Assembly (NCBI GenBank): GCA_021801125.1
Contig: JAJYYI010000071.1
Span: 1-40,341 of the forward strand
Source: Deltaproteobacteria bacterium
GTDB taxonomy: Bacteria > Desulfobacterota > Binatia > Binatales > Binataceae
Reading direction: 5' to 3'
DNA: 40,341 bases
A model generated the notes under the pieces. That model was not told the origin of the DNA. It ran no database searches and saw only the letters and a program-made list of their open reading frames with translations. Shown here piece after piece: positions 2,206 to 6,026 of this stretch. The number at the start of each line of letters is the position of its first letter. Within the stretch, counting starts at the first letter, position 1. The position numbers were made by a program, and so were the translations under genes.

Positions 2206-3165
2206 CTAATTCTGGTCAAGTGAGCGCAGCGCGGCAGGATGCGAGCGGAACCACCGCCAGGTCAGATCGAGCCCTGCGGTCAAAGAGGTTCGGGGATTGA
2301 AGCCTAAGAGCCGGTTGGCGCGATCGAAGTCGGCAAAATTATGCTCGAGTTCGCCTGCCCTTGGCGGGGCGAAGTGGGTCGGGTGCGACGCGCGCCCGGC
2401 GATCTTTCTTAGCTCGTTAGCGAGCGCGATTATCGTGGTTTCGACGCCGCTGGCCAAGTGCAGAAGGGTTCCTGGTTCGAGCGAGCGCTCGAGTGCTTGA
2501 TATATGCCTTGGCATAGGTCGTCCACAAACAGGAAGTCGCGCGTCGCGCTACCGTCTCCGTAAATAACTAGCGGCCGGTCTCTCAGCAGCGCCTTGATAA
2601 ACGCCGTCACCGCCCCGCGCTTGCGATGGCTGAAGGGGCCGTACACATTGGCAAAGCGCAGCATAACGGTCGGCAAAGCGAATGTCTGAGCGAACGCGTG
2701 GCAGTACGCTTCGCCGCATAATTTACTTGCACCGTAAGGAGAGACCGGCCTGGGCAGCGAAGCTTCACTCACCGGAAGCGGCCCCCGACCGATCACAGCC
2801 CCGCCGGAAGAAGCAAACACGAATTTCTTCACTTTCCGGCGCGCCGCTTCCTGCAGCAGATTTACGGTGCCGCGCACGTTAACGTCGAAATTTTCGCTTA
2901 GGCCGCTAACCGACTCGGTGACCGAACCAAAGGCCGCGAGATGGACCACGGCATCGACGCCGCCTTCCATCGCCTCGCCCACGTCGCGCGGGTCTCGCAC
3001 GTCGCCTGTAAGCGCCTCGACCTCCAACCCTTCCAGGTTCGCCGCATCGCCCCGCGAAAGATCGTCGAGCACGCGCACGCGAGACCCCTCGGCGAGCAGC
3101 TTACGTACGAGGCTCGCGCCGATAAAACCGAAGCCGCCCGTCACGAGAATACACTTAAACGCCAA
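2206..3165 (-). CDS. NAD-dependent epimerase/dehydratase, UDP-glucose 4-epimerase-like
   Basis: A 319-residue extended SDR. The Rossmann motif GGFGFIG is at 10-16, the ASSGG segment with the active-site Ser at about 118-122, and the YxxxK catalytic pair at Tyr144/Lys148 (YGASK). Further motifs are RFANVYGP and the GDGSATRDFLFVDD segment typical of nucleotide-sugar epimerases. The start is TTG at 3165, supported by a perfect AAGGAGGT eight bases upstream. It lies downstream of, and in the same direction as, the UDP-sulfoquinovose synthase gene with a 163-base gap. It probably interconverts a UDP-hexose, for example UDP-glucose and UDP-galactose, feeding a surface glycan or glycolipid. Its exact sugar cannot be told from sequence. 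Confidence 0.9.
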   Translation of the reverse strand: MAFKCILVTGGFGFIGASLVRKLLAEGSRVRVLDDLSRGDAANLEGLEVEALTGDVRDPRDVGEAMEGGVDAVVHLAAFGSVTESVSGLSENFDVNVRGTVNLLQEAARRKVKKFVFASSGGAVIGRGPLPVSEASLPRPVSPYGASKLCGEAYCHAFAQTFALPTVMLRFANVYGPFSHRKRGAVTAFIKALLRDRPLVIYGDGSATRDFLFVDDLCQGIYQALERSLEPGTLLHLASGVETTIIALANELRKIAGRASHPTHFAPPRAGELEHNFADFDRANRLLGFNPRTSLTAGLDLTWRWFRSHPAALRSLDQN

Positions 3166-3328
3166 CCTGCGACCTCCTTGAGATTACGAACACAGTTATG
3201 CCGGTGTACGCGACGGACCCCAATTTTCGAGGGCGTCGAGCGACCCGTCGACAGGCCCATCGCCCGTGTTGCTGTGCCCGATGCTCGTGCGGCGACCGCC
3301 GCGAATCGCCGGTGTGCGACGCCCTCGC

Positions 3329-4657
3329 TTAGCGTGGCTTTACCGCGCCGTCGCTCGCCATATTCCACCTGCTGACGGGTACTGCGTTGATCGCAGATGC
3401 CGACCAGCTTCGCGCTCCATTCCCCTCCGAAAAAAGGCGATTGCCCCAAAGCTCGATAGCCAGGCCCTGCAGCCCGGTCGAAGGCCCATAGCCGCAGGGG
3501 TTGCGCGTCTTGCGCCAGTCGACGAGCGGCAAGATGGTTTCCTTCCTGATCCGATGGCGGTAGCGGAAGAGCCGATCCAGGATGGATTCGAGGAGCACAT
3601 CCGATAGGTAATGCGGCTTAAGTCCGAGATCAACGAGCCGCGTGTGCTTGGCGTTGTAATAATGGGCCTGCGCCTCGACCCGCGGATCATCCTCTTGAGC
3701 GATTTCCAGAAATAACCCCTTCTTGCGCGCTGTCTCTTTCACTAGCTCAGCGAGCTGCCTGATGGTGAACTGTTCGGTGAACTGGTTGAAGACGCGGTAT
3801 TCGCCGGGCGCCGGCGGGTTTAAAATCGCCAGCTCAACGCAGCGCATCGTGTCACGTATGTCCAAGAACCCGCGTGTCTGGCCACCTTGCCCGTATACCG
3901 TGAGCGGATGCTCTATGACCGCCTGAACACAGAAACGGTTAAGCACCGTGCCCCAAATCCCGTCATAGTCGAAGCGAGTCGCAAGCCGCTCGTCCAACGC
4001 GGTCTCTTCGGTTTCAACACCGTAGACGACACCCTGATTGAGGTCGGTCGAGCGCAGGCCCCAGACTTTGCACGCGAACATGATGTTGTGCGAATCATGA
4101 ACCTTCGACAAATGATAGAAGGAACCGGGTTGCTTGGGGTACGGCAGGATGTCCCTGCGCCCGTTGTGCGAGATATCGATAAAGCCCTCCTCGATGTCGA
4201 TATTTGGCGTTCCGTATTCGCCCATCGTTCCCAGCTTCACCAGATGACAGGCAGGCTGATGCTCCTTGATTGCAAAGAGAAGATTAAGCGTGCCAACGAT
4301 GTTGTTAACTTGGGTAAACACCGCATGATCGCGATCGATCATTGAAAACGGTGCACTGGGCTGCTCTCCGTAATGGATGATCGCCTCAGGCTTGAACCGC
4401 TTGATCACATCGCTGATAAAAGCGTAGTCGTTAATGTCGCCGCTGAACGGTTCGATCCTTTCGCCGGACACCTCCCCCCACGCGGCGATCCGCTCTTCGA
4501 GCGAGCAAATCGGTATCAGACTATCCGTACCTCCCTTCTGGTCGAGCTGCCGATGCAGGAAATTATCCACCACGCCGACGTGATGTCCTTTGCGCGAAAG
4601 AAACATCGCCTGCGGCCAACCCAAATATCCGTCCCCGCCGATTACCAACAGCCTCAT
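3329..4657 (-). CDS. sqdB: UDP-sulfoquinovose synthase
   Basis: 442 residues, close to plant SQD1 and cyanobacterial SqdB as I remember them. The enzyme uses bound NAD to turn UDP-glucose plus sulfite into UDP-sulfoquinovose, the head-group donor for sulfolipid. Visible: GGDGYLGW at 7-14; [16 protein letters not shown] at 143-158; the catalytic Thr144, Tyr181 and Lys185, matching the known Thr/Tyr/Lys triad; [29 protein letters not shown] and FNQFTEQF in the family order; and [10 protein letters not shown] near the C-terminus. The ATG at 4657 follows GGGAGGT at six bases. The last 55-60 residues, after WRKTRNP, go beyond the usual family end. The barrel gene lies upstream (73-base gap) and the epimerase downstream. 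No SqdX/SqdD-type glycosyltransferase is visible in the window. Confidence 0.93.
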
Positions 4658-4730
4658 GGACTACCTCCCACTCGCGTTTCAGCGTTGTGCGCCTAGACCG
4701 CTATGCCTAGCTCGCACCAGTCGAGCCTCC

Positions 4731-6026
4731 TTAGAAAGGATAGTTTACACCTGAAAACACCACCGCGCCGTTCGGTCCGTAGCCAAAGTCGACATATCCA
4801 ACGACGAACGGCAGCGCGATCCCTCGAAAGCCAACTCCGCCCACGGGATGAAGCTCAGAGACCGGGCTTTGGGTCACGGACCCGAACACTTGCCCGGCGT
4901 CGATAAAGGGAGCGACCTCCAGGATGCCGTGGGTGTCGAAGAGGTCGCGCTCATAGACCCGCATTCGGAACTCCAGATTCCCAACAAACACGTTATTGTC
5001 TATATATCTTCCCGCGCCGTAACCGCGCCACGTAGCGCTGTCGCTGAGCGGCAAGGCCAGCAAGCTGCTCTCGCCGGCGCCGTCACCGCCGAGCCAGCTC
5101 ATGATCCAGAACGGTACAGGATTGGTCGCCGGTATATATCGCGCGTAAAGGTTTCCAGCTATAGTCAGCCACTTCAAGACCCGTTGGTATCGACGTATAT
5201 CGAAGCCGAACTCGCTATAGGAGAACGAACTCATCATCGCACGGTCGGCGCCGCCGCCGAAAAAGCATAGGAGGCCGCCCTTGGTTGGAATATCAATTGA
5301 ATCTCGAGTGTCGTAGGTCAGAAACATCCGCCCCCTGACGACGCTCCCGCCGTCAAGGCCCTCGAGCGTGGGAAACACCGTTCCCGTGAATGGGAGACTG
5401 CTCAGAGCACCACGTTGGATCCGTACGAAGCGCGGCTGAACCGCCAGCGCCAGCTGGAGCTCGTGCGTGATATTCAAGCCGAGCAGCGCCTCGCCATAAA
5501 CTTCCTCGTCCGCGTAATTCGTTTCGCTGCTGAAGGCCGAATCGTTTCCCAACCCGAAGAATCGGTACGTCGGGTCGCGCATAAAAAGAAAATGGCCTTC
5601 GAATGACCACCATCGTCGATGTGTGATGCCGGTGGCATAATCAAACTCAACGCGCTCCTGATTCTGTTCCGCACCTCCGGCTATCGCAAACCACTGTGTG
5701 TCGTCTGAAGGGTAGGACAAATAGCGCAACGTGCCGCCAGGCCCGACGATCGTATTGTAGTTGATATCGGGAGCGAAAATAGATGTGATCTGATGCTGCG
5801 AGTCGGTTTCGAGAAAAACCGGAAGAAGCCCGATAGTAGTACCCGAGACCGGGTCGGTTGCCACTTCCGGCACCGGTATAAACGGCCACGTAGTAGGATT
5901 ACTCCAAGATTGCGGGTCAAACCATTTTTGTAGGTCGGCCAGATCAGCACGCGCCTCTCCACTACCGCATAACAGCATTGCCACGCAGCCGACGAGCGCG
6001 ATGGCCTGTCGCAGTCGCTTTGCCAA
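4731..6026 (-). CDS. Omp85-type (BamA/TamA family) outer-membrane beta-barrel without POTRA domains
   Basis: 431 residues with a cleavable signal peptide (MAKRLRQAI..., hydrophobic to about 24, likely cut after GEARA). The mature start has the segment PVPEVATDPVSGTTIG, which I associate with the D15/surface-antigen barrel families. Alternating aromatic strands fill the rest. WRGYGAGRY at about 335-343 matches the (V/I)RG(F/Y) loop-6 motif of Omp85 proteins. The last residues, GVNYPF, end in Phe, the usual beta-signal for barrel insertion. There is no room for POTRA repeats, so this is a barrel-only member. The start is TTG, with ATG at residue 17 unlikely because it would cut the signal peptide; no strong Shine-Dalgarno was seen. 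It heads the run that continues with sqdB and the epimerase. Its cargo or role is unknown. Confidence 0.82.
   Translation of the reverse strand: MAKRLRQAIALVGCVAMLLCGSGEARADLADLQKWFDPQSWSNPTTWPFIPVPEVATDPVSGTTIGLLPVFLETDSQHQITSIFAPDINYNTIVGPGGTLRYLSYPSDDTQWFAIAGGAEQNQERVEFDYATGITHRRWWSFEGHFLFMRDPTYRFFGLGNDSAFSSETNYADEEVYGEALLGLNITHELQLALAVQPRFVRIQRGALSSLPFTGTVFPTLEGLDGGSVVRGRMFLTYDTRDSIDIPTKGGLLCFFGGGADRAMMSSFSYSEFGFDIRRYQRVLKWLTIAGNLYARYIPATNPVPFWIMSWLGGDGAGESSLLALPLSDSATWRGYGAGRYIDNNVFVGNLEFRMRVYERDLFDTHGILEVAPFIDAGQVFGSVTQSPVSELHPVGGVGFRGIALPFVVGYVDFGYGPNGAVVFSGVNYPF

Follow-up and report, generated by a model that had tools for sequence, protein, structure and literature searches.

The closest described relatives of the enzyme considered here are SQD1 and Agl3, which are thought to oxidise uridine diphosphate (UDP)-glucose at C4, to eliminate water so that a 5,6-ene is formed, to add sulfite and then to reduce the product; when sulfite is withheld, Agl3 yields UDP-glucose-5,6-ene (PMC4388408, PMC8987622). 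In the point-mutation work on Agl3, the R101A enzyme is scored as inactive (PMC4388408). Homology to SqdB, the other named member of this group, is readily read as a sign of sulfolipid synthesis. Here we examine a SqdB homologue and its GalE-like neighbour on a 40,341-nucleotide stretch of DNA from the family Binataceae (contig JAJYYI010000071.1 of assembly GCA_021801125.1; the whole stretch is called the window below), in which a proline stands at the position of that arginine. We hypothesize, as a tentative reading to which we give nearly even chances, that the SqdB homologue and the GalE-like short-chain dehydrogenase/reductase (SDR) are the two enzymes of a nucleotide-sugar module whose chemistry has shifted and which perhaps serves a surface glycan, rather than parts of a plain sulfolipid locus. 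The window corresponds to contig C32 in a draft genome (G000) of 3.5 Mb in 150 contigs (96% complete, 4.2% contamination), and the features that carry the argument are the following:

3329-4657, minus strand: SqdB homologue, Pro-type (Pro replaces Arg101 of SQD1/Agl3), 442 aa; NF041015 501 bits, SQD1 557 bits

4358-4360, minus strand: codon CCC (Pro100) of the SqdB homologue, aligned with Arg101 of SQD1

4553-4555, minus strand: codon 35 of the SqdB homologue, His; by column comparison all 81 Arg-type relatives have Arg here

2206-3165, minus strand: GalE-like extended SDR (epimerase), putative partner of the SqdB homologue, 319 aa; Pfam Epimerase PF01370 190 bits

The SqdB homologue aligns to the Arabidopsis SQD1 sequence of the Protein Data Bank over residues 2-384, SQD1 being its closest solved relative, and retains the SDR triad Thr144, Tyr181 and Lys185. 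Its score against NF041015, the model for UDP-sulfoquinovose synthase, falls below the cut-off of 575 bits, which none of the 15 SqdB proteins tested attains, whether from sqdBD or SqdX-like contexts or elsewhere, the seven tested Arg-type copies included (for example Alicyclobacillus, 491.5 bits, and Sinorhizobium, 332.1 bits). The top score seen, 567.7 bits, belongs to a Pro-type copy, and the cut-off was passed in one of 14 control genomes. Of the columns in which 81 Arg-type relatives agree at 93% or more, the window protein departs from four, and two of the four (position 35, His in the window, and position 100, Pro) are arginine in every one of the 81. SQD1 reads GEQ-R-SAP where the window protein reads GEQ-P-SAP, and an offset of one places Pro100 at Arg101, a residue that we take to contact the sulfonate. 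The sequence-only reading had called this SqdB nearly textbook, which holds for the triad and fails at Pro100 and His35. Given a proline where Agl3 needs an arginine, it is doubtful, as judged from the sequence, that the sugar made is sulfoquinovose. Among the papers listed by a literature search for Arg101, which covered few subscription papers and so does not show that nothing further is published, only PMC4388408 names the residue.

At the arginine/proline position the loci examined show two states. The first set of 94 SqdB copies (five of them duplicate records) comprised 85 with arginine and nine with proline, and no column besides position 100 separated the two types at the cut used. Across the host's class, for which Binatia is our working name, 18 of the 148 genomes searched contained SqdB, with ten Pro-type and 11 Arg-type copies. 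The full census, made up of the first set without its five duplicates, the class loci and plasmid loci (14 fetched of 22 records with an SqdB match), holds 109 loci, 93 with arginine and 16 with proline and none with another residue; neighbour clustering omitted four of the five duplicates, and the tree, like the census, omitted all five. Both types occur in the host genome, proline in the window and arginine in a second copy on contig C125, while two further genomes (G015 and G009) have a Pro-type copy only. Four haloarchaeal plasmid loci are Pro-type, and two of these plasmids (L249 and L255) carry two more SDR-type genes in tandem after sqdB (three of the four genes tested). No SqdB relative was found in the phage collection.

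By supported branches, an 89-row SqdB tree requires at least two changes involving proline. In a second tree of 67 of the 109 rows (the 42 dropped were mostly close relatives, two of them Pro-type), ten Pro rows group together (support 94/91) and unite Chloroflexota, Binatia and haloarchaea; the window's set of four stands apart, nested among Arg types, and includes the Arg-type second copy of the host (98/72). Since the program flags long branches, the order inside the tree is unsure. Two loci (L066 and L068), nearly identical in SqdB and neighbours and found in metagenome-assembled genomes (MAGs) named Thermoflexus and Anaerolinea, were counted as one lineage despite the two genus names; one of them is probably mis-binned. 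An Archaeoglobus MAG (JdFR-37, locus L010) has an SqdB 72% identical to the window's, whose place in the tree is close to the copies from Binatia, through either mis-binning or transfer.

The two types also differ in their neighbours. Within 3 kb, a SqdX-like gene, so assigned by its place and its kinship to glycosyltransferase family 4 (GT4) because no NCBIfam model names it, accompanies 27 of 93 Arg-type copies and none of 16 Pro-type copies. SqdX itself is a GT4 enzyme, and in 26 of the 27 loci of the SqdX-like cluster, mostly from Alicyclobacillus and Bacillaceae, the gene follows sqdB directly. SqdD-like genes occur at 4/93 Arg loci (SqdC-like genes at the same four) and genes for 3'-phosphoadenosine 5'-phosphosulfate (PAPS) reductase at 3/93, each of the three kinds being found at 0/16 Pro loci. 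Taken together, any of these partners is present at 34 of 93 Arg-type loci versus 0 of 16 Pro-type loci (Fisher p 0.0024). The epimerase shows the opposite distribution: a homologue of the window gene no more than 700 nt from sqdB and on its strand is found at 8/16 Pro-type and 5/93 Arg-type loci (Fisher p 3e-5). Glycosyltransferase family 21 (GT21) genes lying no further than 3 kb away do not separate the types (1/16 Pro, 17/93 Arg, p 0.46). Open reading frames (ORFs) were picked by a heuristic of length and codon position; the epimerases of G054, G076 and G082 escaped it and were recovered by tblastn. On two Rhodobacterales plasmids (L245 and L250), a PAPS reductase gene near sqdB suggests a local supply of sulfite, with glycosyltransferase genes around it.

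The epimerase is an extended SDR with a YGASK motif, and its 161.7 bits against TIGR01179 (galE) lie below the cut-off of 262.3, so by score it does not belong to GalE proper. Its six best matches in 57 genomes (the window gene itself, G001, G015, G054 and two in G010) all lie directly downstream of sqdB, and a tree without the G054 copy unites the other five with support of 100/98. Among the columns of the epimerase alignment, one (118, Ala) was specific to neighbours of sqdB, and we judged it uninformative. In G010, one Pro-type pair (locus L133) lies among genes for Wza-like export, Wzi, a MurJ-type flippase, a GT4 and an asparagine synthase, together with a weak match to Wzz, and the second pair (L132) has four gene clusters in common with it as well as a flippase-like protein. 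Because the G010 pairs thus lie twice in capsule- or export-type clusters, a surface-glycan role is favoured on this gene context. The sequence-only reading had offered a sulfolipid or a surface glycan as the end product: the glycan is kept and the sulfolipid has lost ground.

With its SDR triad intact, the SqdB homologue of the scheme that we propose would probably continue to oxidise a UDP-hexose at C4 and to eliminate water from C5/C6; with the arginine needed in Agl3 lost, the sulfite-dependent part of the reaction has probably changed. By analogy with the tunicamycin enzymes TunA and TunF, we favour a chemistry in which the enzyme would either release a UDP-6-deoxy-5,6-ene sugar or add a group other than sulfite; the neighbouring epimerase would then epimerise C4, as TunF does in tunicamycin synthesis, and the product would enter a surface glycan, as the capsule-type clusters of one relative suggest. 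The second SqdB of the genome, of Arg type and beside a GT21 gene, would be the source of ordinary UDP-sulfoquinovose. More speculatively, and with rather less confidence, the Pro-type SqdB homologues of Binatia, Chloroflexota and haloarchaea could be an enzyme of their own, which arose at least twice from Arg-type synthases or alongside them and which makes a UDP-sugar so far unrecorded, either a 5,6-ene or a hexose modified otherwise at C6; a dedicated epimerase would often accompany it, and some genomes would keep both types.

Several points weigh against this scheme. The unit in the second table of the Agl3 mutant study is 5,6-ene formation, and its point-mutation section tells of no fold check for R101A (PMC4388408). 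Loss of the arginine may therefore stop dehydration too, and because R101A was inactive in a study measuring 5,6-ene formation, we rate the exact chemistry below the changed reaction as such. The context statistics ignore shared descent, some loci stop at contig ends, and the sample leans towards relatives of the window; within the class alone the epimerase link is 6/10 Pro versus 2/11 Arg (p 0.08). Half of the Pro-type loci (8/16) have no epimerase homologue within 700 nt, among them G111, whose contig ends about 100 nt downstream. The pair is also not exclusive to proline, since G054 and G076 are Arg-type and have an epimerase homologue closer to the window's (50-52%) than those of several Pro types.

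Upstream of sqdB on the minus strand, the window continues with four further genes:

4731-6026, minus strand: Omp85-type outer-membrane barrel, a family-wide gene linked by position only, 431 aa; PF01103 37.7 bits

6465-7709, minus strand: CitMHS/ArsB-type transporter, conserved block; PF03600 229 bits

7822-9213, minus strand: sigma-54 response regulator, conserved block; PF00158 235 bits

9207-11030, minus strand: sensor histidine kinase, conserved block; HisKA and HATPase_c

The ORFs and family matches bear out an earlier statement that barrel, SqdB and GalE-like epimerase share one strand. The order of transcription is kinase, sigma-54 regulator, transporter, barrel, sqdB and epimerase, with 73 nt between barrel and sqdB and 163 nt between sqdB and epimerase; on the other side of the epimerase, a zinc-ribbon protein with BON domains (3-1667, minus strand) reaches the contig end. 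The six-gene order is found again in G001 (same genus, locus L009) and in G015 (another genus of the family, locus L123), and because of this recurrence the block is not a product of chance. Between the window and G001, the nonsynonymous and synonymous distances (dN and dS) are 0.13 and 1.27 for SqdB, 0.14 and 1.21 for the epimerase, and 0.09 and 1.22 for the barrel, which gives dN/dS of 0.08 to 0.12; against G015, dS is saturated for all three. With dN so far below dS, the three genes are by this measure under purifying selection. Scanning the window against Rfam and for tRNA genes gave no matches. The sigma-54 promoter pattern had 10 matches in the whole window, all with two mismatches, against 17 by chance, and none in the gaps before barrel, sqdB and epimerase; a scan of 1600-9300 gave three promoter-like sites (2.2 expected) and 14 terminator-like sites (9.5 expected), numbers on which we base no operon claim. 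Judged on these comparisons, the module is real and conserved, and its enzyme, a variant within a known family, lacks one residue that a tested member needs.

The barrel passes the PF01103 cut-off of 24 and so belongs to the Omp85 superfamily; its 109 bits to the NCBIfam model NF047779 are below the cut-off of 200, and a Pfam profile search matched no POTRA domain in it. Homologues are present in 34 of 35 family genomes, whereas sqdB is present in 11 of 35, and at seven of nine other barrel loci examined the barrel adjoins a gene of one homologous cluster, whose single tested member is a thiamine-pyrophosphate enzyme. The suggestion that the barrel exports or anchors the sugar therefore finds no support: as it is near-universal in the family regardless of sqdB, we drop the link, and on its distribution we reject it as a sulfosugar exporter. 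The transporter occurs in 24 of 35 family genomes at 290 bits or more and has, at the other loci examined, different neighbours such as a ThiI gene. We therefore do not count barrel and transporter as sulfosugar genes.

Where a sulfoquinovose-transferring enzyme might lie was followed beyond the window. No SqdX- or SqdD-type partner flanks the window's sqdB, which thus does not have the make-up of a sulfoquinovosyl diacylglycerol locus, and the earlier observation that sqdC, sqdX and sqdD are missing holds for the window. In the genome as a whole there is no GT8 gene (PF01501, the SqdD type; one in 57 genomes overall), and a SqdX-like query gave 14 weak matches, the best a partial one of 51 bits over residues 243-377, which could mark a diverged SqdX; in G010, G020, G023 and G029 the same query gave nearly full-length matches of 151-161 bits. 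However, the second, Arg-type sqdB on C125 adjoins an HpnI-like GT21 gene (226 bits to HpnI, cut-off 310). This is not canonical HpnI, because G000, G001 and G015 each hold a separate HpnI gene beside HpnJ (711.8 bits in G000, over its cut-off; homologues 87-92% identical in the other two). An unlikely alternative is that a membrane sulfoglycolipid is made, the GT21 enzyme replacing SqdX/SqdD and transferring sulfoquinovose from UDP-sulfoquinovose of either SqdB to a lipid. It draws on the HpnI paralogues (221-262 bits), which occur in four of 35 family genomes, each of which also has sqdB (Fisher p 0.006, ignoring phylogeny); on their adjacency to sqdB in G000 and G001 and distance of two genes in G015; on a separate GT21 clade near sqdB in Acidobacteriota, in a tree that includes flagged long rows; and on the lack of GT8 and of a clear SqdX-like gene in the host. 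Yet the GT21 gene lies outside the window and in G000 and G001 flanks the Arg-type copy rather than the Pro-type one, three of six HpnI paralogues have no sqdB in the 20 kb seen, and a YdjC-family gene close to GT21 in G009 and near GT21 and sqdB in G015 fits an N-acetyl sugar, as the role of HpnK would suggest; a diverged GT4 could be the transferase instead, given the 14 weak matches and a GT4 gene that lies some 5 kb away from the second sqdB in G000 and likewise in G001. A GT21 route to lipid is possible, belonging rather to the Arg-type second copy. That copy and its G001 counterpart (L122 on C125 and L131 on C25, two species of one genus) share flanks, and the sqdB and GT21 genes between them differ in order and are distantly related, as if independently replaced. 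Acidobacteriota loci (including L025, L032, L016 and L024; gene families were tested on L025 and L032) combine sqdB with GT21, PMT_2 (ArnT-like), an asparagine-synthase-like gene and in some cases EamA small proteins, a make-up in which a polyprenyl-phosphate route adding sulfoquinovose to the envelope is possible.

A more serious competitor, which we hold possible though doubtful, is that the window encodes an ordinary UDP-sulfoquinovose synthase in which the proline is harmless, the epimerase making the C4 epimer (6-sulfo-6-deoxy-galactose) or supplying UDP-glucose, with the sugar again bound for a surface glycan. The intact triad and the match to SQD1 are consistent with it, as are purifying selection with 87% identity to the same-genus copy, the genomes G015 and G009 whose sole SqdB is Pro-type, and the Rhodobacterales plasmids on which sqdB lies with PAPS reductase and glycan-type genes. 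The copies with PAPS reductase, however, and all those with sulfolipid-type partners, are Arg-type, and the Agl3 counterpart without this arginine is inactive (PMC4388408). It is very improbable that sqdB is heading towards loss of function in a block of mere shared synteny among close relatives: the block is found in three genomes only, and barrel and transporter have other neighbours elsewhere, but dN is about a tenth of dS, the triad is intact, and the proline occurs in three genera of the family and in more distant ones. The two-enzyme module with shifted chemistry is thus the reading that we prefer.

If the exchange of arginine for proline marks a changed reaction, sulfoquinovose synthesis would be wrongly annotated in part, the picture of which organisms produce this abundant sulfur compound would be wrong accordingly, and there would be a new nucleotide sugar to describe. 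With SQD1, SqdB and Agl3 the window protein shares the fold family (by sequence), the length, the triad with its TMG motif and most of the substrate loop; it differs in the proline at the Arg101 position, in His35 and in having no sulfolipid transferase adjoining. Like the sqdBDC operon of Rhodobacter and Sinorhizobium, described as sqdB followed by other nucleotide-sugar genes (PMC11346425), the locus places a sugar-modifying gene after sqdB, but the four such copies in our census are Arg-type with a SqdD-like and a SqdC-like gene, and the window epimerase has no match to those loci at the cut used. TunA differs in its UDP-N-acetylglucosamine substrate and TCE motif (PMC8987622), the window protein having TMG like SQD1. 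Host epimerases may replace TunF (PMC6105854), and it is in the pairing of a 5,6-dehydratase SDR with an epimerase that TunA (PMC8987622) and TunF (PMC6105854) resemble the module proposed here.

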